From: a virus
IMG/VR virus record: IMGVR_UViG_3300029945_000044
Coordinates: 1 to 28,740 of that record
DNA length: 28,740 nt
Reading direction: 5' to 3' (one strand)
Positions 19,564-28,722 of the stretch are shown here, in pieces. Made by a program: the position numbers and the translations under genes. Position 1 is the first letter of the stretch. Each line of letters begins with the position of its first letter. The notes below the pieces were generated by a model. It was given only the letters and a program-made list of their open reading frames with translations. It made no database searches and was not told the DNA's origin.

Positions 19564-20679
19564 ATGCAAAATCCAATTATTAATGATACAACTCTTCGTG
19601 ATGGTGAACAAACTGCTGGTGTAGCCTTCACAACAAAAGAAAAATGTGATATAGCTCAAGCTTTATCTGATGCTGGAGTTCCAGAATTAGAAATAGGAAT
19701 TCCTATTATGGGCGACGATGAGATTGAATGTATTCAAGCTATCACTTCATTAAATCTCAATTCCAAATTAATGGTCTGGGGTCGTCTAACAGATTCGGAT
19801 CTTAATGCGGCATTACAATGTACACCAGACATTATCCATCTTTCTATTCCTGTATCGGATATTCATCTCCAATATAAACTCAGACAATCTAGAGAATGGG
19901 TTCTTGATGAAATTACCAGGGTTATTGGTAAAGCAGTCAAGACAGGATATAAAATATCCCTAGGTCTTGAAGATTCATCAAGAGCAGATCTTTCATTTTT
20001 AATCAAGGTTGCTAAACGAGCTCAACAGGTTGGAGCTTCCAGAATTCGGTTTGCTGATACTCTAGGTGTTTTAGATCCATTTTCTACCTATGAAAGTATT
20101 TCTAGAATATTAGAGATTGTTGATATTGAGCTTGAAATTCATGCTCATGATGATCTTGGATTAGCAACAGCAAATACCTTGGCAGCTTTAAAAGCTGGGG
20201 CTACTCATGCTAATACCACAGTAAATGGACTTGGCGAGCGTGCCGGTAATGCTGCACTAGAAGAAATAGTCATGGGCGTTAAGCATCTCTATAACACCGA
20301 TAGTGGGATCGATCCAAAAGCCTTACTTGGTATATCACGGCTCGTCGAGAAAGCCTCAGGGCGCAGTGTAGCGACTAATAAGAGCATTGTAGGTGCTGGA
20401 GTCTTTTCTCACGAGGCTGGAATTCATACTGATGGTTTGGCTAAGAATATTTTGACATATCAAGGATTCGATCCGGCTGAACTTGGCCGGACACATTCGA
20501 TAGTACTTGGTAAGCATTCTGGGTCTCAGGGTATTCGTAAAGCCTATGAGTTGCTTGGATTATTTCCTACTGAAAGACAAGTTAGATTGTTATTAACTGA
20601 TGTTAGAAATCATGCTATGGAATTTAAATGTGAACCCTCTGAACAAGATTTGAAAAGATTTCTTTTTGCTATACGATAA
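19564..20679 (+). CDS. nifV: Homocitrate synthase (NifV-like)
   Basis: A 371-residue protein with the full catalytic core of the homocitrate/isopropylmalate synthase family, which condenses acetyl-CoA with 2-oxoglutarate (homocitrate) or another 2-oxoacid. Motifs: [16 protein letters not shown] (7-22), [28 protein letters not shown] (metal-binding H193 and H195), [16 protein letters not shown] and GIHTDGL, then SIVLGKHSG. From recall, the wording is closest to nitrogenase NifV (ELEIGIP, SRADL, GAGVFxHEAGIH). It lacks the long C-terminal regulatory domain of LeuA, as NifV does. The ATG at 19564 was preferred to an upstream TTG; no clear Shine-Dalgarno is visible. No other nif gene is present. 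Related 2-oxoacid specificities (lysine-pathway homocitrate, citramalate) cannot be ruled out by eye. Confidence 0.88.
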
Positions 20680-20707: not shown

Positions 20708-21886
20708 ATGAAAGTATCAGATATTTTTCTCCTTGCCGAATCTAAAGAAATTATGACAGTCCTAGCTCGTCCATTAAATAAAATGGAAGCTAAACTAGCT
20801 CAAGAATTCCAAGGTCTATGTTCAGTTATCCATGATTATATTGTTGGTGATAAATCAAAAGAATCATGGACCGATCAACATGTTAAAGAATTAATTAGGT
20901 CCCTTAAAAAATTCAAACGTTTCACATTTATGGACCATGCTATCAAAGAACTAGAAGACTGTATTTCTGCATTTGGTAAGATGGGACAAGCTCGTGAGAA
21001 TATGGTTAAGCATCGAACTAAGATGAATAAACATTCAGATGATATTCTTGCTGCTATGTTAGCTGGAGATTTAGATAAAGTTCATGATGTTTCGACTGCA
21101 TTAGGTGCACTATTAGATCAAATAGATGCACACGTAGATGTCAACGAGAAAGCAAAACGCCAAATGAAACAAACTTTCACTAGAGAGAATATGGGTTTCT
21201 TTAGTGGTGGATCAACAGATATTATAGATATCATTGATGGCAATATGTATAAAAAGATTATCGAACTTGATTTCACAAGTGATATTTTTACATACACAAA
21301 TTTCCCAGTTAATAAGATGGCTGAAAATCTAAAATATCTTATCGCATTTATGCTCAATTTGTCAACCACTGATAAGCCAAAACGAATTGATAGTAATGAT
21401 GAATTTAGAAAATATTTAATGTTATCTAAAGCAGGTAGTGATTCATATAAAACATTAATGGATCTAGTTCAAAATTATCTTCAATCAAATAATAAGACCT
21501 TGATTCCTAAAATTATGTCTTATATTGAAGATCATCCTGAAATCCGGGATGCTAATAATAAGGCTAAAAAGAAAATTAAAACAGTTTATCGTGGAGTTCC
21601 GGCTGATAAAGACGAACGTACCATTTCATCAGCCAAAGCAGTATTATTAGATAAAAAAGAAAAAGTTGTTGCTACCTCGCCAAGTAAACATGCTGCAATG
21701 AATTTTGCTCTTCAAAAAGGACATCTAGATTCAGTACGACGTTCTGAACTTGGTTATCTAATTGAATATGAAGTTGATTTTAATTCGATTGTATTAGTAA
21801 CATATATACTTGGTACTGCTTACAATGAAAAAGAAATTTTAATAGATGCAAGTAAAGCTAAAGTTGTACAAATAGAGGAAGTATAA
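20708..21886 (+). CDS. ADP-ribosyltransferase with capsid-targeting-like leader
   Basis: A 392-residue protein from the ATG at 20708 (an upstream TTG overlapping the previous gene is unlikely). The leader MKVSDIFLLAE followed by S has the form of T4 internal-protein leaders (MKTYQEFIAE, from memory), which are cut after Glu by the prohead protease. Residues about 20-285 are helical and unrecognised. The C-terminal domain has the R-S-E signature: KTVYRG (R295), VVATSPSKHAAMNFA (S324) and YNEKEILIDASKAKVV (E374, E376). I infer a packaged, injected arginine-type ADP-ribosyltransferase similar in use to T4 Alt. The catalytic domain is at the C-terminus, as in Alt. Host target unknown. The stop overlaps the next start (TAATG). 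Confidence 0.8.
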   Translation: MKVSDIFLLAESKEIMTVLARPLNKMEAKLAQEFQGLCSVIHDYIVGDKSKESWTDQHVKELIRSLKKFKRFTFMDHAIKELEDCISAFGKMGQARENMVKHRTKMNKHSDDILAAMLAGDLDKVHDVSTALGALLDQIDAHVDVNEKAKRQMKQTFTRENMGFFSGGSTDIIDIIDGNMYKKIIELDFTSDIFTYTNFPVNKMAENLKYLIAFMLNLSTTDKPKRIDSNDEFRKYLMLSKAGSDSYKTLMDLVQNYLQSNNKTLIPKIMSYIEDHPEIRDANNKAKKKIKTVYRGVPADKDERTISSAKAVLLDKKEKVVATSPSKHAAMNFALQKGHLDSVRRSELGYLIEYEVDFNSIVLVTYILGTAYNEKEILIDASKAKVVQIEEV

Positions 21887-22341
21887 TGAGTGAAAACAAA
21901 GCATTTAAAGTTAATACATATGGAACTAGCCCCTTAACAATATTTTCTTCCATGGACAATATTACATTAAGATTTGGTAGTGAACTTCCAACAGAAATAG
22001 AACATCCATTTAAAGATACATTTGATGTATATGTTGACTCTAGAGATAAAAATTGGAAAGAATTGGAAAGAATTATGAAGCATAATGGTGCTTCGGATAA
22101 AGAACTTGAAGAAACTAGAAAAAAGTTTAATAGTGAATCTTTAGCAGAATTAAGATCTACTCATAGAGATTTAATGAACAACAAAATAAAAGAAGTGACT
22201 GCTGTATTATCTAAAATGAGTATTGCTTTTACTAATGTAGCCAAACAAAAATTACTTGAAGTCATACATACTTCCGACGAAGCTAATAAAAAATTAGAAG
22301 AAAGTATTGCTGAACTTGCTAAGAGCTACGCCAACCAATGA
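21886..22341 (+). CDS. Hypothetical helical protein
   Basis: A 151-residue, charged, mainly helical protein, likely coiled-coil in parts (KELERIMKHNGASDKELEET; a helix from about 95 to the end). No family recognised, no membrane segment and no targeting leader. It begins on the last base of the ADP-ribosyltransferase gene, with AGAGGAAG just upstream as a strong ribosome-binding site, so the two are translated together. It might be an immunity, chaperone or companion protein for its neighbour, but only position suggests that. Confidence 0.65.
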   Translation: MSENKAFKVNTYGTSPLTIFSSMDNITLRFGSELPTEIEHPFKDTFDVYVDSRDKNWKELERIMKHNGASDKELEETRKKFNSESLAELRSTHRDLMNNKIKEVTAVLSKMSIAFTNVAKQKLLEVIHTSDEANKKLEESIAELAKSYANQ

Positions 22342-22351
22342 AAGTATCAAT

Positions 22352-22777
22352 ATGAAAACATTTAAACAATTTTTGAGTGAAAGTAAACAATATCCTCCAG
22401 AACAAGTTATTGCAGCTTTCACTCAATTGTATAAAGAAACTGGTAATTCTTTAGATGGTGGAGAATGTGGAGATGCCGCATTCATGTATCATCTCCTTAA
22501 TTCTGAGTTCGAGTACTATGGAATTCTAAGTGATGATGAAGATGAAAACTTAGCTCATATCGTAGTCAAGTATAATGGCAAACTCTATGATGGGCAAGGC
22601 GAACTGAATGACAAATATGAATACCAACCAGTCAAATTCAATAAAGGCTCTAATTTTCATACAAGCACATATGAAGACGATGCTGGCCATGAATCTGCTG
22701 TTGGCGGCGGTGATGGGCATGGCCAACCACATGATAAAGCAACATACAGAAAACTCTTGGCCATCTTAGAAAAATAA
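22352..22777 (+). CDS. Papain-like fold protein with capsid-targeting-like leader
   Basis: A 141-residue protein from the ATG at 22352; an in-frame start at 22307 lies inside the previous gene. The leader MKTFKQFLSE followed by S is very close in form to T4 internal-protein leaders with cleavage after Glu. The body carries a possible Cys-His-Asp triad: GGECGDAAFMYHLL (C39), AHIVVKYNGKLYDGQGE (H69, D80). The order and the H-x-V...G-x-x-YD-x-x-G wording match small papain/transglutaminase-like proteins seen in phages, so a protease, amidase or transglutaminase activity is possible. A His/Gly-rich stretch (GHESAVGGGDGHGQPHD) follows. I infer an injected internal protein; the enzyme activity is unproven. 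Confidence 0.62.
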   Translation: MKTFKQFLSESKQYPPEQVIAAFTQLYKETGNSLDGGECGDAAFMYHLLNSEFEYYGILSDDEDENLAHIVVKYNGKLYDGQGELNDKYEYQPVKFNKGSNFHTSTYEDDAGHESAVGGGDGHGQPHDKATYRKLLAILEK

Positions 22778-24740: not shown

Positions 24741-24789
24741 TTTGTATCAATTACACTTAAGTATCATTTTTACATCTTTTTTTTATAAA

Positions 24790-25500
24790 ATGGAATTAGT
24801 TAAAGAATTATTGTTGTTGAATGAAGCTTCAACGGCTGGAAGAGCTTGGGAAGGCAAATTGAAAAAGATTGATGCGCTTTTAGCATGGATGTATGACAAA
24901 GACATTCTTACAAAGGGCGAAAAGGCTAAAAAGGATTCGATCTTTAGAGCATACTATCGTTATTACAATGATGGCGATATGCCAAAATCTTTAGCATTAA
25001 AAGGATTTAGCAAATACTCAGATAAAGGTTCTATAGAAAAAGCATTAGAAGCATATCTAGAAGATTTTATCAAATCATTACTAAGCAAATATCTACCTAA
25101 AGTAGATAGAGCAGAATTTAGAATTGACAAAATGCTTTCTGATCTATCAACTGTTATTGATGTTTCTGAAAGACATGATGCTCACGGCCTGTTAGAGTAT
25201 TGGTTAAAGACTGTAAAAATTAATGATCCGGAATTAATTTTATCGAAATTAGTAGATGAATTAAAAGAACAATACGACAAGGTAAAAACGGAAGCTGATT
25301 CGATTTCTCCATCTACAGACAATCTAGTCATGTCTCATAGACTAGAAAAAATGAAAACAGCAGGCGAGTCAACAAAAACACTTGACAAAAATTGGAAAGC
25401 TTGTGAAGATACTATCGATGAAATTACAGCATTCTTAAAAAATCTAGTTGATTCGTTAAAACAACTTAAGAAACAAAAGTTTGGTGAATCAGCAGAATAA
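24790..25500 (+). CDS. Helical protein with Alt-like capsid-targeting leader
   Basis: A 236-residue protein from the ATG at 24790. An upstream TTG at 24742 gives a less likely start. The N-terminus MELVKELLLLNE followed by A resembles the T4 Alt leader (MELITELFDE, from memory) and has the L-x-E cleavage form. The rest is nearly all helix and highly charged (KALEAYLEDFIKSLLSKYLP, FLKNLVDSLKQLKKQK), without an enzyme motif that I can see. No Shine-Dalgarno sequence precedes the ATG (TTTTTTTTATAAAATG). I infer a packaged internal head protein, or scaffold-like component, whose role after injection is unknown. Confidence 0.6.
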   Translation: MELVKELLLLNEASTAGRAWEGKLKKIDALLAWMYDKDILTKGEKAKKDSIFRAYYRYYNDGDMPKSLALKGFSKYSDKGSIEKALEAYLEDFIKSLLSKYLPKVDRAEFRIDKMLSDLSTVIDVSERHDAHGLLEYWLKTVKINDPELILSKLVDELKEQYDKVKTEADSISPSTDNLVMSHRLEKMKTAGESTKTLDKNWKACEDTIDEITAFLKNLVDSLKQLKKQKFGESAE

Positions 25501-25519: not shown

Positions 25520-25527
25520 CATAAATA
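25520..25527 (+). promoter_or_regulatory. Variant late promoter of the first terminase-like ORF
   Basis: CATAAATA, one mismatch from TATAAATA, followed by AAGGA and an ATG at 25547; the arrangement parallels the exact octamer before the second copy (26421). Confidence 0.48.
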
Positions 25528-25546: not shown

Positions 25547-25957
25547 ATGGAAAATATAGAATACACAAGACTGCCAATAAATGAGCTTCGCAAATGTCAA
25601 GCTGACCCAGTTCACTTCATTTCAAAGTATTGCAAAATAGTAAATAGAGATAAAGGTTTAGATTTTATTAATTTGAATGACTCTCATATAGCAATGATTC
25701 GTGCAATGCAAGAAGGAAATGCTATCATTGAGGCTCCAAGAATGTTTGGTAAGACGACAATTGAATGTTTATTTGCTCTTTGGTATGCGATATTTTACTA
25801 CGAAAAAAATATTTTATTAGGCGCACATAATTTTCATGCATCAGTTTACATGATGGAAATTATAAAAATCGCATATCAACATCTTCCAGATATGTTTAAG
25901 ATTGGCATAGTACAGCAAACCAAACAGAACATGAGGCTAAAGTTGCTAGCGGATTAA
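25547..25957 (+). pseudogene. Truncated terminase large-subunit-like ORF
   Basis: A 136-residue frame that aligns from its start with the two terminase ORFs downstream: DPVHFISKYC versus DPVYFINKYC, AMQEGNAIIEAPRMFGKTTI (Walker A at 63-70, the same position as in the second copy), LFALWYAIFYYEKNILLGAH and IIKIAYQHLPDM. It stops before Walker B, and the adenine-binding YPYQID of the other copies is replaced by LNDSHIA. It is therefore missing most of the ATPase and all of the nuclease. It still has a good AAGGA site and a late-promoter-like box, so a short protein may be made. A decayed duplicate is the simplest reading; a regulatory fragment is the alternative. Confidence 0.75.
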
Positions 25958-26150
25958 GAGCATATATGTTATACCAGTATCTTGAAGCCCATCTTCCAGA
26001 ATATTTAGCTAAAGTCAGTAAAAATGCCAGTAAGATTGTCAGTACTAAAAAGAAGGCATCCCCGCAATCGATAAAGTCAAAATCACAGATGACGCACATA
26101 AAGAGTATGACACTCTGATGAACCGTTTAAAAAAGAAAAGTGGAAAATAA
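25912..26150 (+). pseudogene. Frameshifted remnant of an unknown gene
   Basis: Protein-like sequence without a start follows the truncated terminase ORF in another frame: EHEAKVASGLRAYMLYQYLE and AHLPEYLAKVSKNASKIVS up to about 26050, then after a one-base shift at an A run, EGIPAIDKVKITDDAHKEYD and NRLKKKSGK to a stop at 26148-26150. Together they resemble the C-terminal end of a helical protein, not terminase. I do not recognise the family. The arrangement suggests a deletion that fused a terminase duplicate to the tail of another gene. Confidence 0.45.
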
Positions 26151-26167
26151 ATGAAAGTAATGAAATG

Positions 26168-26198
26168 AAATTCTAATCGAATGCTTTGATTAGAATTT
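26168..26198 (-). terminator. Hairpin between convergent units
   Basis: AAATTCTAATC (26168-26178) pairs perfectly with GATTAGAATTT (26188-26198) across a nine-base loop. On the + strand ATTTT follows; on the - strand it comes straight after the small gene 26202-26336. It can act as a terminator for both directions, although the T runs are short. Confidence 0.68.
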
Positions 26199-26201
26199 AT
26201 T

Positions 26202-26336
26202 TTAACAAGTCAAATGATGGAAGCAAATCATGAAGGTTGCATTCCACAGATCCAGTTGATTGCCAATCGAAGCAATGACTACAACAATACCAACACCAAG
26301 ACAGAAGTCACGAGCAATGGCTTTTAATTCTTTCAT
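26202..26336 (-). CDS. Small membrane protein on the opposite strand
   Basis: A 44-residue protein, MKELKAIARDFCLGVGIVVV at its start and then IASIGNQLDLW. A charged N-terminus followed by one hydrophobic segment (about 11-25) predicts a single-pass inner-membrane protein. It has complete signals of its own: TATAAT with TGTACA 17 bases away, GGAG eight bases before the ATG, and a hairpin after the stop. It is the only minus-strand gene in the window and sits between two terminase-like ORFs. No family recognised; possible roles such as a small holin-like, exclusion or toxin-like protein are speculation. Confidence 0.55.
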   Translation of the reverse strand: MKELKAIARDFCLGVGIVVVIASIGNQLDLWNATFMICFHHLTC

Positions 26337-26364
26337 GATTGAACTCCATGTTTAAGTTAAAGAA

Positions 26365-26393
26365 ATTATAACTTGATATTTTTGGAATGTACA
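26365..26393 (-). promoter_or_regulatory. Sigma-70-type promoter on the minus strand
   Basis: On the minus strand TGTACA (26393-26388) and a perfect TATAAT (26370-26365) are spaced by 17 bases, 28 bases before the ATG at 26336. Confidence 0.58.
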
Positions 26394-26420
26394 TCAATTT
26401 TTGACATCACTTTCCTGCCA

Positions 26421-26453
26421 TATAAATAAATCTATCTAAAAGGATTTATTTAT
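26421..26453 (+). promoter_or_regulatory. Late promoter in a hairpin that covers the ribosome-binding site
   Basis: The exact late octamer TATAAATA (26421-26428) overlaps the left arm of an inverted repeat, ATAAATAAATC (26422-26432) with GATTTATTTAT (26443-26453). The right arm runs up to the ATG at 26454, and AAAAGGA lies at the loop/arm border. Read-through RNA would hide the start site; RNA begun at the late promoter would lack the left arm and be free for translation. T4 gene e (lysozyme) is known to be controlled in this way. Confidence 0.62.
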
Positions 26454-27206
26454 ATGCTACCAATAGGGTATTCTGAAGAACTTATTAATGAGTTTTTCCT
26501 CTGCGAAACAGACCCAGTTTATTTCATCAACAAGTATTGCAAGTTTCAACATCCAATTAATGGATTGGTGTCTATCAATCTATACCCATACCAAATTGAT
26601 TTAATCAATGCTATGCATCGTGGCAATATTATTTCTATTGGGCCAAGACAGGTTGGTAAAACTCTTATCTCTGCACTATTTTCTCTTTGGTTAGCAATCT
26701 TCTGGCCCAGCCAAAATATCTTGATTGGCACAATCAATGTCAATAATGCACAACACATAATGAGCATTATTAGAATCGCACTCAAGGAATTGCCAACATG
26801 GTTAATTCCAAAAGTAAATATTAATACAATGCAAAAACTGGAATTTTTTAATGGTTCCAGGATTATATCTAATGCATGCTCCTCCGATAATTTTGGTAGA
26901 GGAATTAAAGTATCATATTTAATTTTTGATGAATTTTTATTTGTTAGGAAATCTGTTCAGCAATATTTACTAGGTAATATTGGTTTAACTTATGACCGAG
27001 GTGGCAGTGTTGCAATCTTATCTACTATGTCTGATGATGATGAAATCGCTAAAACACTGTGTGATAGTTCGATATTGGAACAGTGTCATATTAGATGGGA
27101 TGAGCATCCTGAAAGAGGACAAGAATTCAAAAAAAATATGATGGCTGTACTTGGACAGAAAGCCTGGTATAGAGAGTTTGAGTGGGACTTAGATAATGGC
27201 GAATGA
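26454..27206 (+). CDS. Stand-alone terminase-type ATPase (no nuclease domain)
   Basis: A 250-residue paralogue of the ATPase half of the terminase that follows. It keeps YPYQID (adenine motif), Walker A GPRQVGKT (63-70), Walker B YLIFDEF (D159-E160), VAILSTMSDDDE, which fits the coupling-motif position, and WDEHPERGQEFKKNM, then ends at REFEWDLDNGE, exactly where the full-length protein passes into its nuclease domain. All ATPase motifs look intact, so this is a defined domain, not random decay. It overlaps the terminase start by 11 bases, so co-translation is likely. It might join or regulate the packaging motor or act elsewhere; this is not known. The late promoter and hairpin upstream indicate late control. 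Confidence 0.8.
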   Translation: MLPIGYSEELINEFFLCETDPVYFINKYCKFQHPINGLVSINLYPYQIDLINAMHRGNIISIGPRQVGKTLISALFSLWLAIFWPSQNILIGTINVNNAQHIMSIIRIALKELPTWLIPKVNINTMQKLEFFNGSRIISNACSSDNFGRGIKVSYLIFDEFLFVRKSVQQYLLGNIGLTYDRGGSVAILSTMSDDDEIAKTLCDSSILEQCHIRWDEHPERGQEFKKNMMAVLGQKAWYREFEWDLDNGE

Positions 27207-28722
27207 TTATTTAAAAGCGCCAAATGCTCTTTCTGAATATACACCAGAATTAATCCAAGAATTAGTTAAGTGTAAGAAAGATCCCGTGTACTTTATGGAG
27301 AATTATGTTTACATACAACATCCGGTAAGAGGGAAAGTAAAGTTTATTTTATACCCATATCAAATAGATATGGTTAAACAACTGCATGCCAATAAATTTA
27401 ATATTCTGAAAGTTGGGCGTCAACAAGGTAAAACATTGACTGTTGCAATTTATTTCTTTTGGTTTGCTATTTTCCATTCGGATAAATTGGTTCTTGTTGC
27501 TAGTAATAAATTCAGTAATGCTATTGAAATTATGCAGAGAATTCAATATGCGTATGAAGAACTTCCACATTGGCTGAAACCGGGTGTTAAGAGCTACAAT
27601 AAGACTTCAATAGAATTTGATAATGATTCTAGAATGATATCACAAGCGACAACAGCTAATACTGGTCGTGGTCTTGCTTGTGCTAAAATTTTCATTGATG
27701 AAATTGCTTTCGTTCGTAAATCTATTCAGGAAGATTTATGGACTTCGATGGCGCCAACATTATCAACTGGTGGCGATTTAATTATTTCATCAACGCCTAA
27801 TGGCGATAATGAATTGTTTGCTACCTTATGGCGCGGCGCAGTTCTTGGGACAAATGGGTTTACTCCATTCGAAACTTCGTGGGATGCACATCCGGAAAGA
27901 GATGCGACGTTCAAAGATAAAATGATTGGCCAAATTGGCGAATTGAAATTTCGCCAAGAGTATGGATGTGAATTTTTATCATCGGATCCATTATTGATTA
28001 ATTCAATTAAGCTCCAACAACTTAAATCTTCTATGCCTATTATGGAAGATCGCGGATTTAAATTCTGGGGTGAGGTCGATGTCAGAAATTCATACTATGT
28101 TGGTGTTGATATTTCAGTAGGCGTCTCTGGGGATTATTCGACTATCCAAGTTCTTGAATTTCCATCAATGAAACAATTCGCTGAATTTAGATCTAATACA
28201 ATTACACCGCAACAATTGTATGCCAGAATCAAATGGATACTGACTTATCTAAAGGCACCTAAGACTGATCGAGGAAAGTCCCCTGAGGTCTACTGGAGCT
28301 TCGAGAACAACGGCGTTGGTGCTTCTATTGTTGCACTATACCAAAATGAAGACAAGTTCCCTGACGCCGTCCTGCTTAGCGATGATGATCGGATTGGAAT
28401 GAATACTTCAGCCAAATCCAAATTACTAGCTTGCCTAGAATTAAAACGATTAATAGAAAAAACTACTGGAGGTCTCACTGTTAATTCTGAATTACTATTG
28501 ATGGAACTCAAGAATTATATTTCGAATGGTAAGACAACATATCATGCTAAACCCGGTGCAACAGATGACTTAGTAGCAGCCATGTTGATTGTTATGAATG
28601 TATTAAAGAAAGCAGCGGATTATGAAGAATCAGTATTTGAGATGATGTATTCGACTGAGGATGATGATCTTCTTGATAGCGATGATCCTTATGGTAATGA
28701 AGCTGCACCAATGATATTTTAA
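27196..28722 (+). CDS. Terminase large subunit (T4 gp17-type)
   Basis: A 508-residue DNA-packaging motor that pumps DNA into the prohead and cuts the concatemer. ATPase: YPYQID, Walker A GRQQGKT (74-80), Walker B KIFIDEIAF (D168-E169), LIISSTPNGDNE, SWDAHPERDATFKDKM, FRQEYGCEF. The RNase H-like nuclease has YVGVDISVGVSGDYSTIQ (D305), SFENNGVGAS and the late acidic pair ATDDLVAAML; these match the acidic residues of the T4 gp17 nuclease site. The C-terminal tail is very acidic (STEDDDLLDSDDPYGNE), a likely contact for a partner. Length is somewhat shorter than T4 gp17. It starts within the end of the ATPase paralogue. A good AAAAGGA after the stop serves the next gene. Confidence 0.95.
   Translation: MANDYLKAPNALSEYTPELIQELVKCKKDPVYFMENYVYIQHPVRGKVKFILYPYQIDMVKQLHANKFNILKVGRQQGKTLTVAIYFFWFAIFHSDKLVLVASNKFSNAIEIMQRIQYAYEELPHWLKPGVKSYNKTSIEFDNDSRMISQATTANTGRGLACAKIFIDEIAFVRKSIQEDLWTSMAPTLSTGGDLIISSTPNGDNELFATLWRGAVLGTNGFTPFETSWDAHPERDATFKDKMIGQIGELKFRQEYGCEFLSSDPLLINSIKLQQLKSSMPIMEDRGFKFWGEVDVRNSYYVGVDISVGVSGDYSTIQVLEFPSMKQFAEFRSNTITPQQLYARIKWILTYLKAPKTDRGKSPEVYWSFENNGVGASIVALYQNEDKFPDAVLLSDDDRIGMNTSAKSKLLACLELKRLIEKTTGGLTVNSELLLMELKNYISNGKTTYHAKPGATDDLVAAMLIVMNVLKKAADYEESVFEMMYSTEDDDLLDSDDPYGNEAAPMIF

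Follow-up and report, generated by a model that had tools for sequence, protein, structure and literature searches.

Three large-terminase-like genes in series

The right end of a 28.7 kb virus contig (IMG/VR record IMGVR_UViG_3300029945_000044, positions 1 to 28,740; this whole stretch is hereafter called the window) carries three open reading frames (ORFs) in series, all on the plus strand, which resemble the large terminase subunit (TerL; gp17 in phage T4) and which we refer to as copies 1, 2 and 3. A first-pass annotation had described them as three terminase-type ATPase ORFs in a row, and this homology is confirmed both by profile matches, in which all three fall into TerL families of Pfam and PHROGs (copy 1 below the Pfam cut-off), and by local alignment scores of 244 (copies 1 and 2), 170 (copies 1 and 3) and 438 (copies 2 and 3), which so far exceed the maxima of 200 shuffles per pair (43, 71 and 59, respectively) that the similarity is not due to chance. 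The nuclease domain (Pfam Terminase_6C) is present in copy 3 only, which is thus the complete TerL that it had been taken for. Copy 1 is indeed broken, as it ends at 136 aa, upstream of where the RG motif and Walker B would come, and it is most likely a decaying extra duplicate; no relatives were found in a search with the sequence that follows it.

The proposal that all three share the same N-terminal architecture holds for the DPV motif (residue 20 in copies 1 and 2, residue 29 in copy 3) but not for YPYQID, which occurs in copies 2 and 3 only; similarly, the GKT of Walker A is found at residue 68 of both copy 1 and copy 2, whereas in copy 3 it lies ten residues later, at 78. The three-ORF arrangement recurs in a 102 kb contig, which matches the whole window at 99.94-99.98%, and in an 8.7 kb contig; each shows a single difference, in TerL, over ~8.3 kb.

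A predicted stand-alone ATPase domain

Copy 2 contains the motifs GPRQVGKT (Walker A), RG and LIFDE, and its AlphaFold model is a complete domain with a mean predicted local distance difference test (pLDDT) score of 93.6, although the input alignment consisted of 47 rows, mostly TerL, which favour a gp17-like outcome. The best solved-structure matches of this model are to T4 gp17, with a Foldseek template modelling (TM) score of 0.86 to 2o0j, Z scores of 26.0-26.1 over 243-246 residues of the ATPase domain, and a Z score of 25.8 to full-length gp17 (3cpe), where model residues 3-250 correspond to gp17 99-360. Because the span aligned to the ATPase-domain structure (gp17 97-360) likewise closes at residue 360, copy 2 ends at the ATPase-nuclease boundary, and in terms of its predicted structure it is the gp17 ATPase domain encoded as a separate gene. 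The earlier description of a clean stand-alone ATPase with every motif intact is therefore correct as to the boundary, Walker A, RG and Walker B with its catalytic Glu, but not as to motif III, which reads STM instead of STP and has lost its Pro. Just before the end of copy 2, helices 223-233 and 235-241 align near gp17 332-352; we infer that they correspond to the hinge-associated helix-loop-helix to which a passage in a review (PMC9958956) assigns a portal role.

Copy 2 thus has the N-terminal ATPase of a T4-type large terminase, with Walker A, Walker B and catalytic Glu, and lacks the C-terminal RNase H-fold nuclease. Nor is it a pseudo-ATPase, in which the Walker A Lys or the catalytic Glu would be lost, or a small terminase (TerS), in that its 11 PHROG matches are to TerL or unknown families and none is to phrog_445. 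What it does resemble is the kind represented by CBB_274 and gp17.2, a nuclease-free TerL-like ATPase directly upstream of a complete TerL. In CBB and GAP32 this ORF likewise overlaps TerL, has the same end point and (GAP32) the same predicted fold; however, its Walker A Lys is replaced by Leu and its catalytic Glu by Ser or Asp, both of which copy 2 keeps, and the window additionally has the third, broken copy. Phage phiM12 gp17.2 (YP_009143010.1) is a nuclease-free TerL paralogue with intact Walker motifs that sits between TerS and TerL, but at 196 aa it ends after motif III, without the hinge-side helix-loop-helix, and has TerS next to it. The ATPase domain of T4 gp17 itself (PDB 2o0h, 2o0j) shares the whole-length fold (Z score 26), Walker A, Walker B and the P-loop Arg, but in T4 it makes up half of a protein whose other half is the nuclease, whereas here it is a separate gene beside a complete TerL.

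Table 1. Features at the right end of the window
Feature	Position	Strand	Description
Late-promoter-like box before copy 1	25520..25527	+	CATAAATA; ATAAATA core starts 26 nt before ATG
Copy 1	25547..25957	+	136 aa; TerL-like, truncated; Walker A present (APRMFGKT), without RG motif or Walker B
Non-TerL stretch 3' of copy 1	25958..26150	+	Resembles coding remains, two frames
Late-promoter-like box before copy 2	26421..26428	+	TATAAATA; ATAAATA core starts 32 nt before start codon
Copy 2	26454..27206	+	250 aa; nuclease-free TerL paralogue, predicted equivalent of T4 gp17 residues 97-360
Copy 2 Walker A	26640..26663	+	GPRQVGKT; from sequence
Copy 2 Walker B Asp and catalytic Glu	26928..26933	+	From sequence
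Copy 2 C-terminal helix-loop-helix	27120..27176	+	Residues 223-241; predicted helices and alignment; end of gp17 ATPase domain near hinge
Overlap between end of copy 2 and start of TerL	27196..27206	+	11 nt
Copy 3, complete TerL (gp17)	27196..28722	+	508 aa; ATPase and nuclease

Expression signals and gene overlap

Late-promoter-like boxes had been noted before copies 1 and 2, and both are well placed, even though a raw count of ATAAATA in the window gives no enrichment. On the plus strand five of nine ATAAATA sites lie 20-40 nt before a gene start, compared with 0/5 on the minus strand (binomial 6e-8); the test used 19 listed gene starts, two of them mis-set and not ATG, and the 20-40 nt rule was picked post hoc, when the sites had already been seen. 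From the copy 2 box to the window end a scan for ATAAATA only found no further plus-strand site, and this, together with the box itself and the 11-nt overlap, makes it likely from the sequence that copy 2 and TerL are carried on a single message. Tight spacing is common among such paralogues: in 14 of 16 adjacent paralogues with both ends known, the paralogue overlaps TerL by 1-14 nt or is separated from it by 1 nt, several of these 14 cases coming from near-identical genomes; the two exceptions, L009 and L011, have gaps of 46 and 48 nt. The gap upstream of TerL is 6-134 nt in seven phages without an adjacent paralogue.

The TATAAATA box is also found ~31 nt before the ATG of a phage-borne gene for the homocitrate synthase NifV (window 19564-20679; 496.6 bits against an NCBIfam equivalog cut-off of 462.9). 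This gene is identical in the 102 kb contig, and the best 8 of its 11 matches in the phage collection are 26-37% identical.

Nuclease-free paralogues in other phages

In the nearest relatives, whose TerLs are 72-76% identical to that of the window, a paralogue lies upstream of TerL in all three with upstream sequence (L007, L009 and L011), the contig of L008 starting within TerL. In L007 the gene lies at the contig edge and is represented by its C-terminal half, in which Walker B is intact, and the paralogues of L009 and L011 (TerL 72-73% identical) are only 157-161 aa long, lack the P-loop and end shortly after Walker B. The outcome that had been named as decisive against copy 2, its absence or breakage in all close relatives, is thus seen in part, in two of the three. 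The more distant L063 carries a complete paralogue with the Walker A Lys changed to Leu. Farther afield, a paralogue adjoins TerL in GAP32, CBB, XbC2, Kaldavass and the Eneladusvirus BF/SNUABM group, a divergent one does so in the Alcyoneusvirus K64-1/RaK2 group and in Hallingskeid, and in phiM12 and phiN3 the gene order is TerS, paralogue, TerL.

Support is moderate for the K64-1 form (hhalign 79% to the TerL and 87% to the paralogue profile; hmmsearch 2e-8), for the Hallingskeid form (38% and 93%; 4e-12) and for the L072 form (61% and 9%), the last of which has no hmmsearch match to the paralogue model and one of 4e-4 to the TerL model. The paralogue model behind these E-values was built without the three forms; a later one included them, and its E-values are not counted for them. 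An ORF of RAS14 (WAX21702.1) looked paralogue-like by eye but reached only 0.2-0.3% in hhalign and was dropped from the counts. The two-ORF terminases of Atu_ph07 (L018 3552-5773) and L147 (334-3369) were also rejected, as in each of them a single gene seems to have been interrupted at the P-loop, and the interruption carries intein-like sequence; each is possibly an atypically split intein, for which the AceL-TerL intein is a parallel. L144 (3102-5751) has two TerL-like ORFs in series, the first without a nuclease domain and with intact motifs, which resemble a recent duplication and were excluded from the analysis.

The existence and recurrence of the nuclease-free TerL paralogue as a kind are, in our view, solid. 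The kind itself was noted in print in 2017, where a passage of the CBB paper (PMC5259590) reports as unusual a "truncated" large terminase, which it notes for phiM12 as well; what is new is the motif-intact, three-copy variant and the evidence of selection on a group mostly impaired, at motif level, in catalysis. Among the matches listed from the open-access literature there was no functional study of such a paralogue.

Motif loss, selection and origin

Motifs were counted in 19 confirmed or moderately supported paralogues with a Walker A region and 19 with a Walker B region, rows that include close relatives, so that losses are not independent events. The Walker A Lys is replaced in 14/19 and kept in five (copies 1 and 2, phiM12, phiN3 and L055); the catalytic Glu column is replaced in 12/19 and kept in seven, two of which (L009 and L011) are without the Asp. 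Retention of Arg is 17/19 in the P-loop and 17/19 in the RG motif. In the same alignment all 30 TerLs retain Lys, Asp and Glu, the intein-bearing K64-1 TerL having been left out. A hinge-side segment could be aligned in 14/20 rows, a count that includes the partial K64-1 and L072 forms and excludes L055. Even the motif-dead GAP32 form is predicted to adopt the gp17 ATPase-domain fold (pLDDT 89.1; its alignment, too, held TerL rows, which favour that fold), and the TM scores of both models to the gp17 ATPase domain, normalized to the query, are 0.82-0.86. Judged by its motifs, copy 2 is a motif-intact variant among mostly motif-impaired paralogues.

The ratio of nonsynonymous to synonymous substitution rates (dN/dS) was estimated for 18 pairs, which share sequences and are not independent (95% bootstrap intervals in brackets). 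The values refer to the other paralogues, since the near-identical contigs of copy 2 differ at one site only, in TerL. All 18 ratios are below 1, as are the upper bounds in all 11 diverged pairs, ten of which give 0.15-0.27 and the eleventh, GAP32/SNU47, 0.49 (0.30-0.70). Individual ratios are 0.205 (0.13-0.30) for phiM12/phiN3 gp17.2 versus 0.044 for TerL, 0.152 (0.08-0.24) versus 0.045 for XbC2/Kaldavass, 0.227 (0.15-0.33) versus 0.042 for L049/L050, and 0.217 (0.11-0.35) versus 0.038 for GAP32/CBB. Ratios are rough where dS exceeds 1 (GAP32/CBB, GAP32/XbC2, GAP32/SNU47 and L009/L011), and the 0.18 of L009/L011 is weak because dS is near saturation (2.0, versus 0.40 in TerL). Among the seven close pairs, W12-3 gives 0.07-0.09 with K64-1, KP13-7 and Muenster (K64-1/W12-3: 0.091, 0.02-0.23, from 13 changes, versus 0.068 for TerL), and four have too few changes. 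On the evidence of these ratios the paralogues are kept by purifying selection as a family, though they change much faster than TerL, and such selection combined with recurrence argues that as a class they are not junk.

Paralogue dS is also well above TerL dS in phiM12/phiN3 (0.48 versus 0.11), which, as in L009 (5851-7912)/L011 (5851-7926), may point to an exchange of alleles at the TerL locus. The TerL dN/dS of K64-1/RaK2 is raised (0.39).

In trees with long branches, a single origin gave approximately unbiased (AU) test p values of 0.08 (all ten), 0.15 without L055 and 0.26 without L055 and phiM12. Copy 2 groups with L063 (at no more than 42/72 in one tree, 84/71 in another); the clustering of the L055 form with its own TerL (95/93) speaks for multiple origins.

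Possible functions

We tentatively favour the view that copy 2, a duplicate of the ATPase domain of TerL, has been retained to serve the packaging motor as a non-cutting accessory subunit or as a regulator, a reading drawn from sequence and modelling to which we would give slightly less than an even chance. Copy 2 would be translated from the late transcript that also encodes TerL, would contact TerL or the portal through its retained ATPase face and hinge-side helix-loop-helix, and would alter motor loading, nuclease timing or ring composition. Since most relatives are not expected from their motifs to hydrolyse ATP, a shared role would be structural or regulatory, and since two of the three close relatives have no P-loop, ATPase activity cannot be the general function of the copy; copy 2 itself may, by its motifs, bind or hydrolyse ATP.

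Several observations speak against this view. The paralogue had been proposed to be conserved next to TerL, and while it does recur under purifying selection, it is not a universal feature: among the best 80 TerL contigs of one scan, seven of which have less than 600 nt upstream, only four have an ATPase-only ORF next to TerL, and the four include the 102 kb copy of the window, the L011 contig and the moderately supported L072. Profile searches of the complete jumbo-phage records of Munch, fENko-Kae01 and 121Q gave TerL only; for Vibrio 2.275.O, whose record is partial, the only match other than TerL was a weak one (E 0.04), to a 503-aa frame. The result for 121Q does not agree with PMC5259590, which attributes the feature to "the other Rak2-like phages" and names 121Q beside Rak2. 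In Sinorhizobium phage Phosso the paralogue lies ~52 kb away from TerL. In the diverged pairs, dN of the paralogue exceeds that of TerL by a factor of ~3 to 36. The hinge-side segment is missing in the phiM12, phiN3, L009, L011 and copy 1 forms, so that portal docking through it cannot be general; the AU p values of 0.08-0.26 neither demonstrate nor reject a common origin, which makes one shared function an assumption; and part of Table 4 of PMC5259590 lists virion proteins without CBB_274, although TerL is missing there as well.

Whether the subunits of packaging motors are identical in action or have a built-in asymmetry is a long-standing question. It is conceivable, if improbable, that the motor is heteromeric, with a nuclease-free and often ATP-dead TerL-like subunit in the TerL ring or on the portal. 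Such a subunit would make the ring asymmetric and might, for instance, signal the beginning or the end of packaging; copy 2 would then be an early state that precedes catalytic decay. A natural second, often catalytically dead ATPase-domain protein, linked to TerL through overlapping genes and maintained by selection, would provide a genetic handle on motor asymmetry, and phiM12, GAP32 and CBB are growable phages; at present, annotations such as "terminase large subunit" or "hypothetical protein" conceal the paralogue.

That these genes are functionless leftovers of tandem duplications, truncated and decaying, would agree with the broken copy 1, with the patchy presence and with the loss of the P-loop and C-terminal part in L009 and L011, and terminase genes can amplify, T4 gene 17 amplification mutants being named in the reference list of PMC9958956. 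We nevertheless consider it unlikely in view of the purifying selection across several phage groups and of the complete predicted fold and common end point of many of them. Alternatively, a TerL look-alike could act as an anti-defence decoy that binds or occupies host large-terminase sensors of the Avs type without triggering them, and would then represent a new route around terminase-sensing immunity. Avs1-4 recognise the large terminase, portal or another phage protein, as stated in a passage of PMC12931631; the Avs3-bound terminase (8dgc) is among the top fold matches of both models, as it would be for any TerL; and rapid evolution, patchy presence and lost catalytic residues would all fit. 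But the TerL overlap and the late-promoter-like box suggest late, not early, expression, and the whole-gene ratios, admittedly a weak test, are below 1 in 18/18 pairs with no sign of diversifying selection, which is why we hold a decoy to be quite unlikely. An independent ATP-driven enzyme that moves or remodels DNA or RNA, unrelated to packaging, is very unlikely: although the Walker A Lys and catalytic Glu are kept in copy 2, phiM12/phiN3 gp17.2 and the L055 form, and helicase folds follow among the structural neighbours, the catalytic residues are missing in most relatives and the gene overlaps TerL.

Finally, the paralogue occupies the position that a T4-type TerS (phrog_445) has directly before TerL in sister contigs L065, L066, L067 and L098. 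TerS was found by the phrog_445 search in 13/33 and by a TerS alignment search in 19/33, some at borderline E; PF11053 gave 0/18 records, a model that also missed the TerS genes of the four sister contigs. TerS is at best borderline in the Mimasvirus and Eneladusvirus genomes searched (E 0.008-0.04 in three) and was not found in Alcyoneusvirus K64-1 by the same searches. However, in the window clade the genomes that have a paralogue (G001, G004 and G005) keep TerS elsewhere, as a separate gene in G001, so that replacement is rejected there; TerS is also present in the L072 contig and stands in a row with paralogue and TerL in phiM12; and because the same searches found no TerS in Munch and fENko-Kae01 either, which have no paralogue, a missing TerS does not track the paralogue. 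A takeover of the TerS job is therefore extremely improbable.

Other observations

An Rfam scan of the window, L009 and L011 and a tRNA scan of the window were empty. Three probable tail-fibre genes (window 1087, 5059 and 9565) share a near-identical MLVDTLSF leader at their start. Several head-protein candidates (20708-22777 and 24742-25500) carry similar short leaders rich in LLLxE/FLSE, which are reminiscent of the capsid-targeting peptides of T4-type phages; the candidate at 20708 also weakly matches an ADP-ribosylase (E 0.05).

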